Shown here one piece after another: positions 1,703 through 16,649 of a DNA stretch of 20,912 nt (position 1 is the stretch's first letter; every line of letters begins with the position of its first letter). The notes beneath the pieces are model-generated. The model did not search any database and had not been told where the DNA came from. It saw only the letters and a list, made by a program, of their open reading frames with translations. The stretch is from a virus: positions 1 to 20,912 of IMG/VR virus record IMGVR_UViG_3300021962_000780, one strand, 5' to 3'. A program made the position numbers and the translations under genes.

Positions 1703-1906
1703 ATGACTCCAGCAGAATTAGAGCACTTCAAGAATTGCGAAGCTCAAGAGTGGCTCAGACGCTACCAAAAGAAGAAATCGATGATTGGCTCAAGCAAAGC
1801 GTTGCTCTGGTGGCAGGGAGTGTTGCTGGACTTGCAGCGAATCAGAGGCGAATCCGCTACTTTGGATTTGAGAAACCGCATGAACAAACTGAGGGTTAAC
1901 AAATGA
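1703..1906 (+). CDS. Small conserved-looking phage protein (67 aa)
   Basis: Starts MTPAELEHFKNCEAQEWLRRY and ends LRNRMNKLRVNK; its TGA overlaps the RusA ATG at 1903 (ATGA). Helical and strongly basic, with a 'WWQGVLLDLQRIRG' core that resembles small proteins next to RusA in other phages (from memory). A competing frame at 1681-1899 also starts with an ATGA overlap, but its translation looks less protein-like and it does not couple to RusA. The Shine-Dalgarno before 1703 is poor. Function unknown. Confidence 0.6.
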   Translation: MTPAELEHFKNCEAQEWLRRYQKKKSMIGSSKALLWWQGVLLDLQRIRGESATLDLRNRMNKLRVNK

Positions 1907-2331
1907 CATTTATTGTGATGTACACAGTTTATGGTGAGCCAGTAGGAAAAGGTCGCCCAAGGTTTGCCCGTAGAGGGAATTTCGTTTCTACGTACAGTCC
2001 ACAAAAGACCAAAACCTACGAAGATGAAATCAGGATGATGGCAAAGGCAGCAATGGGTAGCTCAGAGCCACTAGAAACGCCTGTAACAGTAGCAATCTAT
2101 ATCAGAGTTGGAATACCTACATCATTCTCAAAACAGAAGCGCAAAGATGCTTTGGCAAACATAGAAAAGCCAACAAAGAAGCCAGATATTGACAATATTG
2201 CAAAGTGTTTTCTGGATGCTATGAATGGAATTGTCTATCTGGATGACAAACAAGTAGTTAGTCTTCACATCACAAAGGTCTTTGCTGAAACACCAGCAGT
2301 AGAAGTTATGGTGAAAGAAGACTTAGGGTAA
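1903..2331 (+). CDS. rusA: RusA-family Holliday junction resolvase
   Basis: 142 aa, close to E. coli RusA (about 120 aa). The N-terminal GEPVGKGRPRFARRG (11-25) is the RusA signature, and the catalytic region KPDIDNIAKCFLDAMNG (93-109) followed by YLDDKQV (112-118) supplies the acidic residues (D95, D97, D105, D114/D115) expected for Mg2+-dependent cleavage. RusA dimers resolve four-way junctions, in phages usually to process replication or recombination intermediates before packaging. The ATGA overlap with the preceding gene and a GAGGG Shine-Dalgarno (just upstream) support this start. All key residues appear intact. Confidence 0.92.
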   Translation: MTFIVMYTVYGEPVGKGRPRFARRGNFVSTYSPQKTKTYEDEIRMMAKAAMGSSEPLETPVTVAIYIRVGIPTSFSKQKRKDALANIEKPTKKPDIDNIAKCFLDAMNGIVYLDDKQVVSLHITKVFAETPAVEVMVKEDLG

Positions 2332-2793: not shown

Positions 2794-2963
2794 CTAATGA
2801 AGAAAGAGATTTGTTTGTCAAAGCTCGTGATCTTTTGACTAAATCAAAGTTTCATTACAACAAAGACAAAGAACAAAGAGATATTGTTGTAGAAAAGATA
2901 CAAGATGCATTGATTATTCATGCCTCAAACCTATTGGCAAACCTAAATGAGAAAAAGAACTAA
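2790..2963 (+). CDS. Small helical phage protein (57 aa)
   Basis: Starts by ATGA overlap at 2790 and runs to TAA at 2961-2963, overlapping the next gene by 17 nt. The product (starts MTNEERDLFVKARDLL) is predicted all-helical and highly charged, with no Cys cluster or membrane segment. Nothing in it identifies a function; accepted because it fills the gap exactly between two coupled genes. Confidence 0.55.
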   Translation: MTNEERDLFVKARDLLTKSKFHYNKDKEQRDIVVEKIQDALIIHASNLLANLNEKKN

Positions 2964-3408
2964 ACGCAAGTTCTGGGCATTGATAGACCCAATAGCGCAT
3001 AGCATAGTAGGTGCTTCAATTACCCACAGGGATAAGCTAGACAAACTCCGCTTAATGGAATACTCAGCCCTAGAAGCCATGACCAAGGGTAACGGGACAA
3101 TCCACGATTGGAGAACCCTAGTCGATGTTTTAAACCTAAGTGAAACGATGGCTAGAAACAATATCGGAAAAGATGAGGTAATGCCTGTTTGCCAAAAAGC
3201 ACAAGATGCATTGCACCAGGCAGCCGAACGCTATCAAAAGACAATGAGGATGGGTTTATCGGGTGAGGGTATCCAAGCCGTGCGAGAACTACTTGAATAT
3301 GCAGACCTTCAACAATCGAGCATTTCAAGGGCAGATTTTGAAAAGTACATTCAAAAAACCAAAGACTACATCAGATCAAACGGGAACCTAGTGGTTGAAA
3401 TCAAATGA
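2947..3408 (+). CDS. Conserved phage protein of unknown function (153 aa)
   Basis: Basic N-terminus (MRKRTKRKFWALIDPIAHSI), then helical segments including 'LRLMEYSALEAMTKGNGTIHDWRTLVDVLNLSETMARNNIG', and 'AVRELLEYADLQQSSISRADFEKYI'. The layout is familiar to me from proteins in the early region of proteobacterial phages, always uncharacterised; that is recollection only. It starts inside the end of the previous gene and ends in an ATGA overlap with the first alpha-CTD-like gene, suggesting coordinated expression with it. Confidence 0.7.
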   Translation: MRKRTKRKFWALIDPIAHSIVGASITHRDKLDKLRLMEYSALEAMTKGNGTIHDWRTLVDVLNLSETMARNNIGKDEVMPVCQKAQDALHQAAERYQKTMRMGLSGEGIQAVRELLEYADLQQSSISRADFEKYIQKTKDYIRSNGNLVVEIK

Positions 3409-3791
3409 AAAACGAAGAATTACTAGATCACTTTGCAATCAATGCAATGAACTCTCAAATTGAGAAATTTGGGATAACCAACCCGCACAGCCTAGCTCAA
3501 ACAGCGTACCGAGTCGCTCAGAATATGCTTGAGAATAGAAATCGGATTATCGCTGAATGGAAAAGAGATGAAGAGCAAAAAATAGAATATGCCACTGCTG
3601 ATATTCACGAATTAAATCTACCTATTAGATATTATCGTTGTTTAACCGCAGAGAATATCTATACTAAAACGAAACTATGCGAATGGCCTGAAAGAGATAT
3701 TAAAAGAATCCCAAATCTAGGCCCTAGAGGGTTGAGATACTTAAAAGAAGCAATGGCGCAAGAGGGTTTAAAGTTTAAAGGTCAAGCATGA
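3405..3791 (+). CDS. RNA polymerase alpha-CTD-like protein, copy 1 (divergent)
   Basis: 128 aa. N-terminal helical domain (about 1-55: MKNEELLDHFAINAMN...AYRVAQNMLENRNRII) shared with the gene at 3949. The C-terminal part (about 66-126: IHELNLPIRYYRCLTAENIY...RIPNLGPRGLRYLKEAM) aligns with the bacterial RpoA C-terminal domain, including the helix-hairpin-helix 'PNLG'. Against E. coli numbering R75 matches R265 and C79 matches C269, but N268 is R, K271 is T, K298 is R108, S299 is G109 and E302 is Y112, so DNA-contact residues are partly changed. It lacks the alpha N-terminal assembly domain. Likely a DNA-binding or RNA-polymerase-directed regulator; could be a generic HhH DNA-binding protein. 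Confidence 0.7.
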   Translation: MKNEELLDHFAINAMNSQIEKFGITNPHSLAQTAYRVAQNMLENRNRIIAEWKRDEEQKIEYATADIHELNLPIRYYRCLTAENIYTKTKLCEWPERDIKRIPNLGPRGLRYLKEAMAQEGLKFKGQA

Positions 3792-3952
3792 TTGAACAAA
3801 AGAAAGACGCACCAGGCAACCCGCCCTATTACGTTTGCACTAACTGCAAATGGGCTTTTCAGGCTTTGCAAGAGGCTAACGAGCATGGTAGGCGATGCGG
3901 GAGAGATGAAGTAGCCCCTATATACCGACATTACGAAAGAGACATTAAATGA
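3788..3952 (+). CDS. Small zinc-finger protein (54 aa)
   Basis: ATG 3788 overlaps the previous stop and its TGA (3950-3952) overlaps the next ATG at 3949, so it is coupled on both sides. It contains C17-x2-C20-x12-H33-x3-C37 (YVCTNCKWAFQALQEANEHGRRC region), a classic single C2HC zinc finger. The basic residues around it (RR, R, RH, R) would suit nucleic-acid binding. It lies exactly between the two alpha-CTD-like paralogues, hinting at a joint regulatory cassette (inference). Confidence 0.7.
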   Translation: MIEQKKDAPGNPPYYVCTNCKWAFQALQEANEHGRRCGRDEVAPIYRHYERDIK

Positions 3953-4299
3953 CAAGGGAAGAACTCTTAGACCAGATCGCAATAGAAGTATTAAAGAACC
4001 TACCCCATAACTTTGCCCGTGATGCCTATAACATCGCAGAGGGTGTGCTAGAACGCAGGGATGCAATACTTCACAAATGGGCTTTAACTGAGGCTATCGT
4101 TTTTGATGGATTAGAGAAACTCAATTTAACTGTTCGATCTGAGCGTTGTTTAAAAGCCGATGAAGTATATACATTAACGCAATTATTAAACTGCACAAAA
4201 GATAGATTATTAAAAACACCCAATATGGGTAGAAAAAGCGTTAATGAGATAATCGAGAAACTAGCCGAGCATGGTTATAAACTAAAAGGCGAAGCATGA
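3949..4299 (+). CDS. RNA polymerase alpha-CTD-like protein, copy 2 (well conserved)
   Basis: 116 aa. N-terminal helices (MTREELLDQIAIEVL...AYNIAEGVLERRDAIL) match copy 1. Residues about 55-113 closely follow RpoA-CTD: LEKLNLTVRSERCLKADEVY, then LLKTPNMGRKSVNEI. Relative to E. coli alpha, R63 = R265, C67 = C269, K69 = K271, G94 = G296, K96 = K298, S97 = S299 and E100 = E302 are kept; only N268 is replaced (R66). These are the residues that bind UP-element DNA, so a UP-element-like DNA contact is plausible. No alpha N-terminal domain is present. It starts and ends with ATGA overlaps. Possible roles: recruiting host RNA polymerase, competing with host alpha, or a plain DNA-binding regulator. Confidence 0.75.
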   Translation: MTREELLDQIAIEVLKNLPHNFARDAYNIAEGVLERRDAILHKWALTEAIVFDGLEKLNLTVRSERCLKADEVYTLTQLLNCTKDRLLKTPNMGRKSVNEIIEKLAEHGYKLKGEA

Positions 4300-4619
4300 A
4301 CGAACCCACACTTGCGATAGAGTTCATCATAAAAACAGCCCCTTTGTACGCCAAGGCTAAATCAGATCGTATGTTTTTAGAAGAATTTAGACGATCAAAA
4401 CACGCACAACTGAAAAGCCTTGCAGGGACTGAAGTGCTAGGTAAGCAGGACACATTTGCTTATGCTCATCCTGAATATGTGGAGATTCTCGAAGGAATCA
4501 GGGCAGCCGTTGAAATAGAAGAACGCTATCGCTGGTTAATGACAGCCGCCCAAGCCAAGGTCGAGTGCTGGAGAACCGCCCAATACAGTGCGAGAATGGA
4601 AATGAAGGCCACCACTTGA
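4296..4619 (+). CDS. Conserved phage protein of unknown function (107 aa)
   Basis: ATGA-coupled start. Predicted nearly all-helical and charged: 'YAKAKSDRMFLEEFRRSKHAQLKS', 'AYAHPEYVEILEGIRAAVEIEERYRWLMTAAQAKVECWRT'. I have seen this arrangement (YAKAKA-R-YLEEFRKSKKA...AYAHPDY) in early regions of other phages next to nuclease genes, always without function. Its stop (TGA 4617-4619) overlaps a TTG start of the HNH gene at 4616, so the two are probably co-translated, consistent with a role in recombination or DNA processing (inference). Confidence 0.7.
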   Translation: MNEPTLAIEFIIKTAPLYAKAKSDRMFLEEFRRSKHAQLKSLAGTEVLGKQDTFAYAHPEYVEILEGIRAAVEIEERYRWLMTAAQAKVECWRTAQYSARMEMKATT

Positions 4620-5056: not shown

Positions 5057-5227
5057 TCATTCAAACCCCACAAATTCTAAAGCTTCAAATTTGCAAGCTT
5101 CAACTTGATCAACTGATAACCCGAAGGCTATTTTTTCCGCTAGTTGTGAAGCTTGATCGGCTTTTTTATCATTTGGAGCTGTAAGGGCTAAAATTAAACA
5201 CTGGGTTAATGCTTCAATTTGTGACAT
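5057..5227 (-). CDS. Small phage protein, last gene of leftward operon (56 aa)
   Basis: Minus-strand ATG (5225-5227) preceded by AAGGGG with 5 nt spacing; the SD includes the TAA stop of the previous gene. Product starts MSQIEALTQC and includes LILALTAPNDKKADQASQLAEKIAFGLSVDQVEACK, a two-helix layout that I recall from small early proteins of podoviruses, all uncharacterised. It is followed by the operon terminator. No catalytic or metal motif is visible. Confidence 0.7.
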   Translation of the reverse strand: MSQIEALTQCLILALTAPNDKKADQASQLAEKIAFGLSVDQVEACKFEALEFVGFE

Positions 5228-5236
5228 ATAGGCCCC

Positions 5237-5461
5237 TTAAATTGTGCAGCAACCACAGCATGGTGCATCAATACAGCGTCCACGTTTATTTCTGTAGAAC
5301 GTAGAAGGCCCGTTCTCACCGATGAAAGTAATAGTGTCCGAATCGGGTTGTAGTTGTGCTGTTTTATTGCTTGTGTCATACAAAATATAATCACCTGGCT
5401 TAATAAGTGCGCCAGATAACTTACATTTACCAAAATACTTTGCTTTCATTGTTTTAAGCAT
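5237..5461 (-). CDS. Small basic protein with Cys-rich C-terminus (74 aa)
   Basis: Start chosen at 5461 (MLKTMKAKYFGKCK) because AGGGG lies about 8 nt upstream and it overlaps the end of the Gp88-like gene by 8 nt; an upstream start would extend 24 residues through that gene. Core 'KYFGKCKLSGALIKPGDYILYD' resembles a small treble-clef/zinc-ribbon-like beta fold seen in phages (inference). The C-terminus CIDAPCCGCCTI packs five cysteines in ten residues, unusual for a cytoplasmic protein and suggestive of metal or Fe-S binding. Function unknown. Confidence 0.7.
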   Translation of the reverse strand: MLKTMKAKYFGKCKLSGALIKPGDYILYDTSNKTAQLQPDSDTITFIGENGPSTFYRNKRGRCIDAPCCGCCTI

Positions 5462-6212
5462 AATGAACACCCCTAATTTGAACAAAGCCGCCATTGTCTT
5501 TTTTAGCTTTTCCTTTGGCATATAAAGCCACAACTACAGCTTTGGGTTCTATGTGACGCACGTCCGTATTGTCCCCGTCAATTACACGCCAGCCACGAAA
5601 ATTGTCAGGGATATCGCTTTGCTTTTGAAAAACCACGGCCGTACGGGAATTGTTCGGATTAGTCAGGCCCTTAATTGATATCGGTTTTGGGGTAATAGCT
5701 GAAAAACTATACGTAAGGTCATAATTACCCGCTGTTTTCCCGTCTAATTTGCGTGAAGGGTGTTTTGTATAGTCGTAAAACTGTACGTCAGGGAATAACT
5801 GAAAAATTGTTTTTCCATCATGCACAATAATATTTTCAAAAGCGATATCACTTGTGCCATTAGGTCGAACCAAAGGGTTTAAACCGATGCGCTTTGCCTT
5901 GTTAACCAAAGACCACACGTCAGCGCACAAAGAGAGCATAAAAGCTTCTTGATTATTGTAAAAAAACTGTGTTTTTGCTTGCCTAGCTTGTTGAACACTA
6001 TTGAATGCCCCACGTCCTGCGCTTTTTAGGCAACCTTCGAAGCAGCCAGCCAGCTTAGCCAAAGGGCAAATTATTTCATCGGGTACAAGGTAGACAATAC
6101 CCGTCAAATAGCCGATTTTTTCACCCTTAATTGTTTTTGCTGACGACTCACCCAAAATCGTTTTGTAAGGTAAGCCACGAGCAGCCAAGATTGTTTTGTA
6201 TGGATTTTTCAT
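5454..6212 (-). CDS. Gp88/DUF7227-like phage protein
   Basis: 252 aa. It has the block pattern I associate with the phage/plasmid Gp88-type family (DUF7227): SAKTIKGEKIGYLTGIVYL (24-42), C49-P-L-A-x3-G-C57-x3-C61 with SAGRG (64-68), ARQAKT (76-81), VRPNGTSDIAFE (115-126), FPDVQFYDYTK (140-150), VIDGDNTDVRH (210-220) and AKGKAKKDNGGF (232-243). The three cysteines look like a metal site. Biochemical function is unknown to me. The ATG at 6212 is preferred over an upstream GTG (6219-6221) because that GTG is part of the AGGTG Shine-Dalgarno. The N-terminus contains an 11-residue-spaced duplication (PYKTIL at 4-9 and 15-20). Largest gene of the leftward operon. Confidence 0.75.
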   Translation of the reverse strand: MKNPYKTILAARGLPYKTILGESSAKTIKGEKIGYLTGIVYLVPDEIICPLAKLAGCFEGCLKSAGRGAFNSVQQARQAKTQFFYNNQEAFMLSLCADVWSLVNKAKRIGLNPLVRPNGTSDIAFENIIVHDGKTIFQLFPDVQFYDYTKHPSRKLDGKTAGNYDLTYSFSAITPKPISIKGLTNPNNSRTAVVFQKQSDIPDNFRGWRVIDGDNTDVRHIEPKAVVVALYAKGKAKKDNGGFVQIRGVHYA

Positions 6213-6243
6213 TATTAACACCTATAAACAGTTAAAAAATACA

Positions 6244-6271
6244 ATTCTAGGGGCACAAAACCCCTAGTAAA
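6244..6271 (-). promoter_or_regulatory. Palindrome CTAGGGG/CCCCTAG with overlapping promoter-like boxes
   Basis: A perfect 7-bp inverted repeat (6247-6253 and 6261-6267, 7-nt loop) lies in the 75-nt gap before the Gp88-like gene. Read leftward, TTTACT (6266-6271) and TAGAAT (6244-6249), 16 nt apart, make a moderate promoter whose spacer and -10 overlap the palindrome, so an operator is possible. It could instead be a terminator hairpin after the 31-aa gene, since a T run follows a few bases later. A smaller GGGT/ACCC repeat lies at 6273-6284. Sequence resembles the 7047-7066 palindrome. Confidence 0.5.
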
Positions 6272-6287
6272 CGGGTAAAAACCCTAG

Positions 6288-6383
6288 TTATTTGACCAAA
6301 ACGTCAAAATAATCAAGTAAACCTATGCAAAGCACAAGGGCTATTGCAAGTGCAGCGGCATAGTCTAAAAATTGATCGTTCAT
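6288..6383 (-). CDS. 31-aa single-span membrane peptide
   Basis: Minus-strand ATG at 6381-6383 with AAGGGG 6-7 nt upstream, the same signal as its neighbours, and 3 nt past the previous stop. The product starts MNDQFLDYAAALAIALVLCIG and ends LLDYFDVLVK: a short acidic N-terminus, about 19 hydrophobic residues (8-26), and a charged tail, i.e. one transmembrane helix. Too short for most gene finders. The role is unknown; phage micropeptides of this type can target host membrane proteins or act as holin-like or inhibitory peptides (inference). Confidence 0.65.
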   Translation of the reverse strand: MNDQFLDYAAALAIALVLCIGLLDYFDVLVK

Positions 6384-6386
6384 TGT

Positions 6387-6587
6387 TTAACCCCTTTTAT
6401 AGTGTACTGGGCGCTCATAAAAACCCCGTTCGTCACGATAAATTGAGACGTAATACCCGTATTTTGAGCCATCGTCATAAGTTAAACCGATCGTTTGCCC
6501 GTATGCAATAGGCGTACAAGGCCATGCATGGGAAAGGTTTTCCGATTCCAAAGCTTCTGACAATGTTGGAAAGAAATTGTTTTTCAT
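6387..6587 (-). CDS. Small phage protein of unknown function (66 aa)
   Basis: Start at 6587 (MKNNFFPTLSEALESENLSH) rather than the longer open frame reaching 6704, because AAGGGGC lies 6 nt upstream and overlaps the stop of the preceding gene. The C-terminal half (YGQTIGLTYDDGSKYGYYVSIYRDERGFYERPV) looks like a small beta sheet rich in Tyr. No family recognised. Its own stop follows GGGG of the next gene's Shine-Dalgarno. Confidence 0.7.
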   Translation of the reverse strand: MKNNFFPTLSEALESENLSHAWPCTPIAYGQTIGLTYDDGSKYGYYVSIYRDERGFYERPVHYKRG

Positions 6588-6597
6588 TGTTTGCCCC

Positions 6598-6786
6598 TTA
6601 AATAAACTCAACATGAGGGTTTCCCGTTTGACGGGTTTTCCATGCGTCAAGCTCATCGAACGTCTCGAAAACCCAGTAAGAACCCATGAAACCATTAGAA
6701 GCATAAGCTACGGGTTTTGCCCCTTGTTTTTTAGCCTTCGCTACGGCATTTAAACCATTACGGCATTTGATAAAAGAGTAGATCAT
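6598..6786 (-). CDS. Small phage protein of unknown function (62 aa)
   Basis: ATG at 6784-6786, preceded by TAAGGGGCTAAAA, in which TAA is the previous gene's stop. Basic first half (IKCRNGLNAVAKAKKQGAKP) followed by an aromatic-rich strand region (VAYASNGFMGSYWVFETFDELDAWKTRQ). Possibly a compact alpha/beta fold; I cannot assign function. Accepted on the strength of the ribosome-binding site and tight packing. Confidence 0.7.
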   Translation of the reverse strand: MIYSFIKCRNGLNAVAKAKKQGAKPVAYASNGFMGSYWVFETFDELDAWKTRQTGNPHVEFI

Positions 6787-6796
6787 TTTTAGCCCC

Positions 6797-6976
6797 TTAT
6801 CCGTTTTTAGCGATAAGGTTAAAACACTTTAAGTATTCCCGTGCAGCTTGATAAGTGTCCGTCATAACCTTATCAACTAACCCGCCGTTTTTGTACACTT
6901 TGACGATGTAATAACCATTGTGGGAAACACGTTCGAATGTAGTGTAATCCCCGTTTTTTTGCTCAGTGATTTTCAT
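6797..6976 (-). CDS. Small phage protein, first gene of leftward operon (59 aa)
   Basis: Start chosen at ATG 6974-6976 (MKITEQKNGDYTTFERVSHN) with AAGGG upstream; a GTG at 7004-7006 would add ten residues and lacks a clear ribosome-binding site. Reads like a beta-rich N-terminus (GDYTTFERVSHNGYYIVKVYKNGGLVDKV) plus a helix (TYQAAREYLKCFNLIAKNG), an arrangement common in tiny phage early proteins. It is nearest to the divergent control region 6977-7102 and would be transcribed first. Confidence 0.7.
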   Translation of the reverse strand: MKITEQKNGDYTTFERVSHNGYYIVKVYKNGGLVDKVMTDTYQAAREYLKCFNLIAKNG

Positions 6977-7046
6977 ATTAAAGCCCTTAGTAGTTGACAC
7001 TTTCACTTGAAAGTAAAGTAATTTTATGGCCTAAAAAAGAAAAAAC

Positions 7047-7066
7047 TATTAGGACAAACCCTAATA
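7047..7066. promoter_or_regulatory. Palindromic operator in the divergent control region
   Basis: TATTAGG (7047-7053), 6-nt spacer, CCTAATA (7060-7066): a perfect 7-bp inverted repeat midway between the leftward operon and the rightward gene at 7103. A good -10 hexamer TACAAT follows at 7070-7075 for rightward transcription, with only a weak -35 (TTAGGA, 7049-7054, short 15-nt spacer) inside the palindrome. Binding here would block that promoter. The leftward promoter is less clear (TAAAAT, complement of 7021-7026, is one candidate -10). Confidence 0.6.
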
Positions 7067-7102
7067 AAGTACAATTATTTCAAATTATTTTATGGGTAGA
7101 TC

Positions 7103-7351: not shown

Positions 7352-7673
7352 ACAATAGACGGATAAGGCTAGATCAATTCAAGTACATCAAAAAAGCTGC
7401 CGCCGTGTCCTACACTTTGGTAAACGCAAATGAGAATCATTCGCATCTAGGATAACTAAGGGTAAACCCTATGCTGTACGTTTAGCCAGTACTGTAAGGA
7501 TAGACAGTAGTAGAAACCCTGATAGGGAAAACCCTTAGGTAGAAACCCCAGGTGTATGGAAAGATGGGGGGGGGAGGGGGTAGGTTGGGTTGGTAGATAT
7601 TTGTGGTACACCCCCTATACCGAAAAAGCTAAAACGAATAAACTAAGTCATCACTTCCTAGAAAGGGAAAAAA
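7352..7673. other. 322-nt noncoding control/packaging region
   Basis: No credible gene on either strand. It holds a Fur-box-like 15-mer (7431-7445), palindromic elements of the form AGGG-A-rich-CCCT at 7458-7471 and 7523-7536, another CCCT-GAT-AGGG palindrome (7517-7527), a direct repeat GTAGAAACCC (7510-7519 and 7539-7548), and a G tract (nine G at 7566-7574, A, five G at 7576-7580, then TAGGTTGGGTTGG) able to form a G-quadruplex. Location right before the terminase genes makes a packaging-start (pac/cos) or late-promoter function plausible, but no clear sigma70 promoter is visible. Confidence 0.6.
7431..7445. promoter_or_regulatory. Fur-box-like inverted repeat
   Basis: TGAGAATCATTCGCA matches 11 of 14 defined positions of the 7-1-7 Fur consensus TGATAATNATTATCA, and the wider AATGAGAATCATTCGCATC looks like Fur boxes of beta- and gammaproteobacterial iron genes. 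A phage site is unexpected; chance or host origin is possible. Confidence 0.3.
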
Positions 7674-8042: not shown

Positions 8043-8211
8043 CTGGATTGTTACTATTAACAGACCATCGTATTTAGAGACACAGGCGCTGTTAGTGCCA
8101 AAAGACAAGATCACAGAGTTGGTGAATAAAATCCTAGAAGATGAGGGTGTTTGGGCAGATGGGGACTACATAACCATTAAGCCTACCAAGATGGAGTATT
8201 TTGATGGCTGA
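8035..8211 (+). CDS. Small protein between terminase subunits (58 aa)
   Basis: Start at ATG 8035 (MINWIVTINRPSYLETQALL) with GGAGG 7 nt upstream; an earlier ATG at 8020 lies before that site and is less likely. It overlaps the small terminase end by 8 nt and the large terminase start by 8 nt. Predicted alpha/beta (INWIVTINRPS strand; KDKITELVNKILEDEG helix; DYITIKPTKMEYF strand). Function unknown. Confidence 0.7.
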   Translation: MINWIVTINRPSYLETQALLVPKDKITELVNKILEDEGVWADGDYITIKPTKMEYFDG

Positions 8212-9463
8212 CCTTAATTTTTCCCTTCTGCCGTGGCAACAGCAAGTTTTTGCTGACAAAACAAGGTTCAAGGTTGTGGCTGCTGGGCGTAGATGTGGTA
8301 AGTCTCGGATGGCGGCAGTTACCCTACTAATAGAAGGACTCAAGTGTCCACAAGGCTCTGCGGTTCTTTATGTTAGTCCTACTATGGGACAGTCAAGACA
8401 GATTATCTGGGACTTACTGCTAGACCTTGGCAGAGAGGTTATTCAGTCATCCCATGTGAACAACCTAGACATTACCCTGATAAACGGGGCTAGGATATAC
8501 GTCCGTGGTGCGGATAGACCTGATACCCTTCGTGGAGTGTCATTGACCTATGCTGTACTAGACGAGGTAGCCGACATCAAGCCTGAAGCATGGGAGCAGG
8601 TCATTCGAGCCAGTTTGTCTGATAAACGGGGGAGAGCACTCTTCATCGGCACTCCAAAGGGCAGAAATTGGTTCTACGATACCTTCAAGCTAGGTGAGAG
8701 TGAGGATGATCCTGATTGGAAAGCATGGCACTTCACCACTGCTGATAACCCCTTAATCGACGCAAAAGAGATAGAAAGTGCTAAAAAGACCCTGAGTACC
8801 TTTGCTTTTAAACAAGAGTACATGGCTTCGTTTACCAATGCGGGTTCTGACATCTTTAAAGAGGAGTGGATCAAGTACGGGGTTAAGCCTGAACATGGAA
8901 GCTATTACATCGCTGTTGACCTTGCAGGATTCGAGGAAGTTGCCAAACAAGCCGCAAATTCCAAGAAGCGTCTGGACGAGTCTGCTATCTCGATAGTTAA
9001 GGTCACAGAGGATGGGAAGTGGTTTGTTGAGAAGATTGAACACGGGCGCTGGGACATCCGAGAGACTGCTTCTAAGATTCTGATAGCCATTCGGGACTAC
9101 CGACCTCTTAGTGTGGGAATAGAGAGGGGGGCGCTAAAGAACGCTGTTTTGCCCTATCTGAGCGACCTTATGCGAAAGAACAACACCTATGCCCATATCA
9201 TAGATTTGACCCATGGAAATAGAAAAAAAGCAGACAGAATCATCTGGGCTTTACAAGGTAGGTTCGAGCATGGCAGAATTGTGTTAAATTCTGAGGAAGA
9301 TTGGGATGAGTTTGTAGACCAGTTAATCCTGTTCCCTGCTCAAGGAGTCCACGATGACTTGCCTGACTCCCTTAGTTACATTGACCAACTTGCTGTTACA
9401 TCTTACATGGAAGAAGATGACTCCGAGGAGTGGGAACCTGTAGATATTATTAGTGGGGTATAA
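8204..9463 (+). CDS. Terminase large subunit (ATPase/nuclease)
   Basis: 419 aa. Packaging motor ATPase: Walker A GRRCGKS (28-34), Walker B YAVLDE (116-121) and coupling motif GTPKG (149-153). The C-terminal RNase H-like nuclease shows YYIAVD (D239), SVGIER (E307) and HDDLPDSL (D384/D388), the acidic cluster that cuts concatemers. Length is typical for compact podoviral TerL. ATG 8204 has GGAG 7 nt upstream; a TTG codon just before (8201) is not needed. All motifs look intact, so the phage should package its own DNA. Confidence 0.95.
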   Translation: MADLNFSLLPWQQQVFADKTRFKVVAAGRRCGKSRMAAVTLLIEGLKCPQGSAVLYVSPTMGQSRQIIWDLLLDLGREVIQSSHVNNLDITLINGARIYVRGADRPDTLRGVSLTYAVLDEVADIKPEAWEQVIRASLSDKRGRALFIGTPKGRNWFYDTFKLGESEDDPDWKAWHFTTADNPLIDAKEIESAKKTLSTFAFKQEYMASFTNAGSDIFKEEWIKYGVKPEHGSYYIAVDLAGFEEVAKQAANSKKRLDESAISIVKVTEDGKWFVEKIEHGRWDIRETASKILIAIRDYRPLSVGIERGALKNAVLPYLSDLMRKNNTYAHIIDLTHGNRKKADRIIWALQGRFEHGRIVLNSEEDWDEFVDQLILFPAQGVHDDLPDSLSYIDQLAVTSYMEEDDSEEWEPVDIISGV

Positions 9464-9465
9464 GA

Positions 9466-10056
9466 ATGGCAGAGGGTTTGTTATCGCCTGACAAAAAAAA
9501 TCAGCCCGCATTGACGGGTGCTAATAGATTGGTTGATTTTCTATTGCAGAAGTTAAGGGCAGATATGTTTCCGACATCTGCAAAAACATTGATTGAAACT
9601 GCTCAAGGCAATAAAGACCCTATAACTGAAAAGAACTTTACTCCTGAAGAATTGGTGGCTTTGCAGAAACTTATTGCATCTACCAATGAAAGAGGGGATG
9701 TTCAATATCCTGATTACTATAACTTGATGACAAAAGAACGTAAAGAAAAGGGAACAATTCCCGCTTCTTTAATGCCTTCGATACTTTCAATGGCAGACCC
9801 TATTGGCAATTTACAAACAACATTGGGTCGTTTTACATACTCAAGAGATGCTGATGGAAATCTGATTGTTGTTGACAAGTACGATTTTAATAAACCAAGC
9901 AATCTTGGCGGGATGTATGGTTTGATGAGAAACTATGCGGGAGAGAAAATACCTACTGGCTTTGGAAGAGATGTAAGAATCAACCTTGGCAAGACTCCCA
10001 TAAATCAACCACAATCCTTACAATACCAAGACCCATTTGGAAATACTACAAAGTAA
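9466..10056 (+). CDS. Putative virion-associated protein with C-terminal DPFGNTTK tag
   Basis: 196 aa, 2 nt after the large terminase. Helical N-terminal half (LVDFLLQKLRADMFPTSAKTLIE), then a region with TLGRFTYSRDADGNLIVVDKYDF and 'YGLMRNYAGEKIPTGFGRDVRINLG', which resembles a domain I recall embedded in larger phage internal or tail proteins; function unknown. The last eight residues DPFGNTTK closely match the end of the next protein (DPFGDTTR). Located between terminase and portal, so a packaged or head-internal protein is plausible. Confidence 0.65.
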   Translation: MAEGLLSPDKKNQPALTGANRLVDFLLQKLRADMFPTSAKTLIETAQGNKDPITEKNFTPEELVALQKLIASTNERGDVQYPDYYNLMTKERKEKGTIPASLMPSILSMADPIGNLQTTLGRFTYSRDADGNLIVVDKYDFNKPSNLGGMYGLMRNYAGEKIPTGFGRDVRINLGKTPINQPQSLQYQDPFGNTTK

Positions 10057-10061
10057 TTAAC

Positions 10062-10535
10062 ATGGCTAGTAAAAAAATTGGGAATTATAAATTATTTGAC
10101 CAAGGTGCTAATCGTAAACCTGCGCTTTCTGGTGGAAGATATCTAGAAGAAGGTCAAAAATTACCCGATAGTACATTCAAAGGTAAAGGGTACTTTGGAG
10201 AAATCCCGACAATGGATGGTAGTGTGATGACTGAGTATTCATCAGCTTTTGAGATTGGCGATAAAACAATTTCCTATCCTTTGATTGTTCCAACATTAAC
10301 TACTGATGAATTAAACTTATTGCGTACAACAGGTGAGGCTACACCTGAGATAGAAAAAAAAGCGCAGCAGTTTGCTTTAGACAGAATAGCACAAGGTAAA
10401 AGCCCGTTTGCCATGCCTTCAGAGTTAAGGTATCCTCTTCCAGAAGGATTTGACCCTAAGATTTTTGCTCCTGTTGTAAACTCTGCACCAGTAAACCCCG
10501 CTTATAGCGACCCTTTTGGCGATACGACAAGGTAA
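10062..10535 (+). CDS. Putative virion-associated protein with C-terminal DPFGDTTR tag
   Basis: 157 aa. The middle (GYFGEIPTMDGSVMTEYSSA, KTISYPLIVPTLTTDELNLL, QQFALDRIAQGKSPFA) looks like a domain I recall inside larger proteins of freshwater and marine phages, usually without function. The sequence is otherwise unrelated to the upstream gene, yet both end in YxDPFGxTT(K/R), suggesting a common recruitment or assembly signal. Weak Shine-Dalgarno. Ends 4 nt before the portal start. Confidence 0.65.
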   Translation: MASKKIGNYKLFDQGANRKPALSGGRYLEEGQKLPDSTFKGKGYFGEIPTMDGSVMTEYSSAFEIGDKTISYPLIVPTLTTDELNLLRTTGEATPEIEKKAQQFALDRIAQGKSPFAMPSELRYPLPEGFDPKIFAPVVNSAPVNPAYSDPFGDTTR

Positions 10536-15892: not shown

Positions 15893-16035
15893 AACAAGGT
15901 CTGTACGCTAACATCAATGCCAAACAAGAACGCATCAAAGCTGGTTCTAAGGAAAAGATGCGTAAGGTTGGTTCTAAAGGCGCTCCTACTGAGGCGGCAT
16001 TTAAGGCTGCGGCTAAGACCGCAAAGAAGAAATGA
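15889..16035 (+). CDS. Lysine/alanine-rich small protein (48 aa)
   Basis: Starts MKQGLYANINAKQERIKAGS and ends in FKAAAKTAKKK, a histone H1-like tail. Twelve Lys and two Arg among 48 residues, three Glu, no Asp. Family looks familiar (QGLYANIxAKxxRIxAGSxExMRKxGSKGAPT) from phage genomes, unnamed to me. Coupled to both neighbours by ATGA; the downstream neighbour is an HNH endonuclease. Confidence 0.65.
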   Translation: MKQGLYANINAKQERIKAGSKEKMRKVGSKGAPTEAAFKAAAKTAKKK

Positions 16036-16649
16036 TCCCTGAATCATTAGACAAAACAACTGTTAATCAGTTACTTCTGTCTCATGGGACATGGAAACAT
16101 CTTTTTTACCGATGCTATTCAGAAGTAAGCCCTGATTACAAAAACTATGGCGGTCGTGGAATTGATGTGCATCTATCGTGGCATGGAGAAGATGGCTTTT
16201 ATCAATTTATCCAAGATGTTGGACTTAGACCATCAAAAGATTACAGTCTTGATAGAATTGATGTGAATAAAGGTTATTCGCCAGAAAATGTGAAATGGTC
16301 AACTAGCATTGAGCAAGCCAATAATCGAAGGAATAGCAAGCGATACTTGTTTGAAGGCGAGAATCTTACGTTGGCTGAGATTGCTAGAAAAACAGGAATT
16401 GGATACCAAAGAATCTGGAAAGCAACAAAGATTTATGGTGATCCATCAGAACACACAAAAATTGATCCAGATCGTGGCAAACGTATGTATCAAGGTGAAT
16501 TACGCTCAACAACTGAGATTGCTAAAATGGTCAATATGAAGCCAGAAACGCTTATGCAAAGATTAAGAAATGGCTTAGATTTTGATTTAGCTATTGCATT
16601 ACCACCTCAGCCTGGTGTACACTTCACAGGAAGATCATCATGGTCTTAA
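16032..16649 (+). CDS. Free-standing HNH homing endonuclease with HTH repeats
   Basis: 205 aa. Endonuclease part: WKHLFYRCYSEVSPDYKNYG (21-40), GRGIDVHLSW, SLDRIDVNKGYSPENVKW (72-89) and EQANNRRN (94-101), the motif series of phage HNH homing enzymes. Two C-terminal helix-turn-helix repeats follow (about 106-136, LTLAEIARKTGIGYQRIWKA; and 153-190, RSTTEIAKMVNMKPETLMQRL), likely target-binding modules. It starts by ATGA overlap with the previous basic gene and overlaps the next by 10 nt, which is unusually tight for a homing gene. A selfish element inserted into a late operon is the likely explanation. Confidence 0.85.
   Translation: MIPESLDKTTVNQLLLSHGTWKHLFYRCYSEVSPDYKNYGGRGIDVHLSWHGEDGFYQFIQDVGLRPSKDYSLDRIDVNKGYSPENVKWSTSIEQANNRRNSKRYLFEGENLTLAEIARKTGIGYQRIWKATKIYGDPSEHTKIDPDRGKRMYQGELRSTTEIAKMVNMKPETLMQRLRNGLDFDLAIALPPQPGVHFTGRSSWS

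Follow-up and report, generated by a model that had tools for sequence, protein, structure and literature searches.

Several phages act on the alpha subunit of host RNA polymerase. The T4 enzymes Alt and ModA modify Arg265 of the host alpha C-terminal domain (alpha-CTD) (PMC2988021), and Rac of phiKMV-like phages, which is linked to alpha cleavage, also targets alpha (PMC7552054). None of these is like the two proteins described here: Alt and ModA affect host alpha-CTD function at R265 as alpha-modifying enzymes and not as alpha-CTD homologues, and Rac is acetyltransferase-like. The alpha-CTD itself is a known domain, with which a few phage records are annotated; among named phages it occurs in gp005 of Bacillus phage vB_BmeM-Goe8 (YP_009849950.1, annotated 'RNA polymerase subunit alpha'; C-terminal alpha-CTD, 78 bits) and in gp23 of Ruegeria phage vB_RpoS-V16 (AWY09459.1; 41 bits). 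In a literature search that covered few subscription journals, we found no description of phage-encoded alpha-CTD homologues, and no paper on the large phage family reported here.

We analyzed a 20.9-kb virus record (IMGVR_UViG_3300021962_000780, positions 1 to 20,912; hereafter the window), in which two small proteins, P1 (3405..3791, 128 aa) and P2 (3949..4299, 116 aa), are encoded on the forward (+) strand, as are their domains, the neighboring genes (zinc-finger, g10, g14, RusA, terminase large subunit) and the intergenic stretch at 7034..7095 described below. ORF calls agree with the coordinates given for both genes in a preliminary description of this DNA, and with its statement that only a coupled zinc-finger gene separates them. 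This gene (3788..3952) encodes a 54-aa zinc-finger-like protein with a CxxC..H..C pattern, and P1, the zinc-finger gene and P2 follow one another with successive 4-bp ATGA overlaps. Judging from sequence comparisons, and with about even confidence, we propose that P1 and P2 may be phage DNA-binding transcription regulators that act at upstream promoter DNA with or against host RNA polymerase.

Alpha-CTD homology and a phage-specific N-terminal module

Both C-termini had been described as RpoA-CTD-like. We found that the C-terminal regions of P1 (3570..3758) and P2 (4108..4269) match Pfam RNA_pol_A_CTD (PF03118) at 42.1 bits (E 7e-11) and 66.5 bits (E 1.7e-18), above the gathering cut-off of 23.8 bits. 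The generic helix-hairpin-helix model HHH_5 reached 19.3 bits in P2, below its cut-off of 27, and was not found in P1. NCBIfam matches were overwhelmingly RpoA models, and nearly all matches in a PDB sequence search were RpoA (best E 5e-7 for P1 and 4e-12 for P2). AlphaFold models of the two proteins (pLDDT 85.5 and 86.5) matched RpoA or alpha-CTD chains throughout, among the Foldseek matches listed against the PDB. The P2 model superimposes on most isolated alpha-CTD chains with an rmsd of 0.9-2.4 Å, at mostly 41-44% identity, and the P1 model on RpoA or alpha-CTD chains with an rmsd of 0.7-3.0 Å, at 28-34% identity. The preliminary description had named structure prediction as a check and had held that an unlike fold, or matches to generic HhH proteins only, would speak against its reading; because PF03118 is passed, HHH_5 is below cut-off or absent and both models take the alpha-CTD fold, neither objection applies. 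A chance HhH resemblance was rejected on the PF03118 scores and the fold matches. These results confirm that the C-termini of P1 and P2 are genuine alpha-CTD relatives, that is, captured domains; the earlier term 'mimic' is loose, since the homology is by descent. No alpha-CTD family was matched in PHROGs, and Pfam, PHROG and NCBIfam gave no notable match of P1 or P2 to phage regulator families (Q, RinA, ArpU).

A common N-terminal helical domain had also been noted, and the two proteins do align from end to end (33% identity, E 3e-20). Their N-terminal ~50 residues (3405-3569 in P1, 3949..4089 in P2) form one short and one long helix in the AlphaFold models and are homologous to stand-alone phage proteins that lack an alpha-CTD. 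These contain '..MTLRDYFAAKAMQ..' or are of the type '..AFP..GMTLRDYFAAKAMQ..AY..ADAMLxAR', and some are encoded in the same phage contigs as the fusions. Single-sequence PHROG matches of the module were weak, and hhalign against the stand-alone modules gave a probability of 97.7% (E 1.8e-12); for the stand-alone proteins, the PHROG matches are phrog_2201, 37111 and 20565, all three of unknown function. Since the module also occurs alone in phages, each window gene joins an orphan phage module to an alpha-CTD, the latter conserved in P2 and derived in P1. As stated earlier, the alpha N-terminal domain is absent: the proteins are only 116 and 128 aa long and begin with the phage module, and they are therefore unable to replace alpha. 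The proteins of the named phages are built differently, Goe8 gp005 having another 145-aa N-terminus, no zinc-finger partner seen and an origin in another phage group, and V16 gp23 carrying its alpha-CTD N-terminally, joined to an unrelated C-terminal part. The related contig L242 encodes, on its minus strand (486-1353), a stand-alone RDYFA module and a protein that is only an alpha-CTD, with one gene in between; it carries a fused gene as well, flanked by ERF-like and YqaJ-like genes.

Scans of IMG/VR (>140 contigs by tally) yielded 99 distinct CTD sequences, of which 82 carry the common N-terminal module. The family splits into two old types, A (with P2) and B (with P1). The nearest relatives of P1 are in L024 (91%) and L025 (75%), and that of P2 is in L001, at 99-100% protein identity and a synonymous distance of 0.33. 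Both types are under strong purifying selection, with dN/dS of 0.01-0.14 for P2 and of about 0.1 or lower for P1 against L024 and L025 (0.11 against L024). The phylogeny against host RpoA that had been suggested as a way to date the capture gave no date; in this CTD tree of 70 columns P1 and P2 fall in separate groups, and the data are compatible with one origin for all the phage CTDs (p-AU 0.81). A whole-family scan of genome contigs found no cellular member, and 249 genomes from the phylum of G051 (Pseudomonadota) gave only RpoA-length matches among the matches listed. In comparisons of portal and terminase, cultured relatives were too distant to name a host.

Other phage proteins in IMG/VR carry the alpha-CTD on different N-termini. 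One of these, at 5476-6186 of the unrelated phage L183, fuses Sigma70_r4 (34.9 bits, above cut-off) to an alpha-CTD (72.4 bits); with two promoter-reading modules in a single chain, it is a direct link between phage alpha-CTDs and promoter recognition. The L183 gene belongs to a recombination operon, where RecT-like, YqaJ-like, HNH-like and SSB-like genes come directly before it, on a contig with an integrase-like gene. A second recurrent fusion, of a 'MTKEIYLKQYQEARG..VCVKFDSLEEARSFRNEIENP' module with an alpha-CTD, occurs in L142, L143, L145, L151 and L154-L156.

Contact residues in the two types

Positions 259/261 and 285-288 of the alpha-CTD contact sigma and activators. We tallied contact residues, in E. 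coli numbering, for module-bearing sequences of type A (41) and type B (39) and for 33 sequences of RpoA, the last a sample biased towards P2-like sequences. The equivalent of R265 is Arg63 in P2 and Arg75 in P1. P2 retains R265, C269, K271, G296, K298, S299 and E302, exactly the residues that the preliminary description had listed as kept, and its DNA-contact face is intact except for N268, which is Arg. P1 retains R265, C269, G296 and K298 (as Arg) and has R268, T271, G299 and Y302. The UP-element contact set (R265, N268, C269, G296, K298, S299, E302) is thus represented by 6/7 residues in P2 and, with Arg counted for K298, by 4/7 in P1. That P1 had lost several contacts holds for positions 271, 299 and 302, but this copy is not simply degenerate, because G299 (39/39) and Y266 (37/39) are fixed across type B; these residues look like the signature of a different conserved function. 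The idea of P1 as a decaying copy was rejected on the same fixed residues and on its dN/dS against L024.

R265 and G296 are invariant in type A, type B and RpoA, with R265 present in 80/80 module-bearing sequences. All 41 type-A sequences have S299 and E302, and 38 have K298 (Arg in the other 3); E302 is lost in 37/39 type-B sequences and is F, L or Y in 34. About a tenth of type A has an acidic residue at 259 (Lys in 21), and 7/41 have one at 288 (Arg in 26), compared with 29/33 and 31/33, respectively, in the P2-biased RpoA sample; in type B each of the two positions is acidic in 37/39 sequences. N268, whose replacement in both copies the preliminary description had passed over, is found in 33/33 of the RpoA sequences sampled, whereas most type-A and most type-B members have Arg or His there (type A: Arg 20, His 10, Asn 8). 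In E. coli, N268 is needed for UP-element function: N268A fails to complement, and with N268W UP activation is abolished (PMC11434276). Given N268 and the type-specific changes, the host domain is not simply reproduced in either type. Both share with RpoA the fold, the HhH DNA-contact face and the R265, C269, G296 and K298 equivalents, to which type A adds S299 and E302; they differ from it in the missing alpha N-terminal domain, the fused phage module and the replacement of N268, and type A also in the reversal of 259 and 288.

Gene neighborhood and the tandem pair

The P1-zinc finger-P2 cluster lies between a RusA Holliday-junction resolvase gene (1903..2331; PF05866, 131.9 bits), used here as a context marker, and the HNH/terminase region, where the late operon begins just upstream of the terminase large subunit gene (8201..9463; PF03237, 57.3 bits). 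Other phages often place late regulators between RusA and HNH/terminase. Two genes of unassigned function are coupled to the cluster, g10 upstream (2947..3408), a neighbor conserved in L001, L005, L014, L024 and L025, and g14 downstream (4296..4619), also a conserved neighbor. An A+T-rich intergenic stretch between divergent blocks (7034..7095), conserved in L001, L015 and L022, is a candidate target DNA. The search for a repeated operator near terminase found a GGGTWWACCC palindrome only once in the window, with partial conservation in relatives, and a sigma-70 promoter scan showed no excess over shuffled sequences.

Other parts of the window have features of their own. Between HNH and terminase, a leftward block that includes a GP88-family gene is inserted (5057-7006, minus strand), and its content differs among relatives. 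Non-coding DNA before the terminase genes (7352-7673) contains a conserved run (GGGGGGGGAGGGGG..) and a AGGGTAAACCCT palindrome common to several relatives. Two adjacent genes between terminase and portal (9466-10535) encode near-identical tails (..YQDPFGNTTK and ..YSDPFGDTTR). A 205-aa protein encoded among the structural genes (16032-16649), with weak sub-cut-off Sigma70_r4/HTH matches and an HNH/AP2-like look, is possibly a homing endonuclease.

Neighbors were counted in deduplicated loci with both flanks, which are related and hence not independent. A CxxC..H..C gene lies next to the CTD gene in 25/47 type-A loci (upstream) and in 15/45 type-B loci (12 downstream, 3 upstream), compared with a share of 1.5% among small ORFs; the window cluster unites the two orders. 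ERF and/or YqaJ genes adjoin another 18/45 type-B genes, and in L059 they flank the CTD gene on either side (Pfam-confirmed). This context and the loss of N268 both count against a regulatory role and make a serious rival of a function in DNA recombination or replication, in which the alpha-CTD would be reused as an HhH minor-groove binder that aids an annealing protein, exonuclease or resolvase without RNA polymerase contact. The ERF/YqaJ cassettes around many relatives fit such a function equally well, and the position downstream of RusA and the weak HHH_5 match in P2 are in keeping with it. However, type A retains the alpha-CTD-specific DNA face exactly, other members occur with zinc fingers or beside an HTH-like gene, one phage fuses sigma region 4 to an alpha-CTD, and operon position alone says little. 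We regard a recombination function as possible but rather unlikely.

The two main types usually occur singly, and their presence together sets the window genome apart. An alpha-CTD was matched in 49 of 50 related records, 48 of which contained it once; two family members occur together in L056, and L242 combines a family member with a different kind of CTD. Because nearly every relative is single-copy and P1 and P2 belong to separate lineages, the pair is a co-residence of two old lineages, brought about by recombination or, less likely, by chimeric assembly. The same two observations argue against the earlier suggestion of a functional activator and decoy pair. A recent tandem duplication was rejected, given the 33% identity and the closer similarity of each copy to other phages. 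Chimeric assembly would concern the tandem order and not the proteins themselves: a type-B and a type-A genome could have been joined through the zinc-finger gene, which occurs next to either type and whose DNA is strongly conserved (up to 93% identity), and the single copy in nearly all relatives fits this scenario. Each junction is found elsewhere, though, at 79-88% and so not identical (P1-zinc finger in L025; zinc finger-P2-g14 in L004 and L005), and two CTDs also occur in L056, independently, and in L242. An artifact of this kind seems improbable to us.

A proposed role at upstream promoter DNA

The transcription regulator reading draws on the retained DNA face of type A, the sigma-4/alpha-CTD fusion, the position of the genes and a presumed dependence on host polymerase, and also on the low dN/dS, the PF03118 matches and fold, and the precedent of phages that target the alpha-CTD. 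Searches for a T7-type RNA polymerase, in which a T7 control was positive, found none in 24 related records (up to 63 kb), which may be incomplete; these phages therefore presumably use the host polymerase. Family members probably control transcription, and our best guess is that they act at the host RNA polymerase or at UP-like DNA.

In the mechanism that we envisage, a captured bacterial alpha-CTD would work fused to a phage-specific helical module that is probably self-associating, so that the proteins may dimerize. P2 most likely grips A+T-rich, UP-element-like DNA in the minor groove by its R265/G296/K298/S299/E302 face. It probably does not simply copy the contacts of the host alpha-CTD, because the sigma- and activator-contact positions 259 and 288 are charge-reversed. 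By occupying upstream promoter DNA, P2 could displace the host alpha-CTD and shut off UP-dependent host promoters, or it could recruit polymerase to phage promoters, with the N-terminal module or the coupled zinc finger as the link. P1 would be a conserved variant whose remodeled DNA face and acidic 259 and 288 suggest a different target.

The acidic 259 and 288 and the altered DNA face of type B (S299G in 39/39, E302 lost in 37/39) would also suit decoys: soluble versions of the alpha-CTD, chiefly type B, that would sequester activators, sigma or other alpha-CTD ligands of the host and thereby stop host transcription that depends on activators. We find this very doubtful, since positions 261 and 287 are not retained as a set in either type and are reversed in type A. 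Returning to transcription regulation, a bolder version, which we also hold to be very unlikely, is a two-part device in which type A supplies a DNA-reading face with its polymerase and activator contacts dropped, type B supplies an acidic contact side with its DNA side rebuilt, and the common module and the zinc-finger protein link the two, rewiring host polymerase at upstream promoter DNA; the window phage would then have both parts.

Phages modify or cleave host alpha, and we found no description of a detached, evolving alpha-CTD used as a DNA-binding module. The family is sizeable, has no PHROG alpha-CTD match, falls into two sharply defined residue classes and has a counterpart in another phage in which sigma region 4 is fused to an alpha-CTD. 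The P1 and P2 fusions also provide a first lead to the role of the common orphan phage module.
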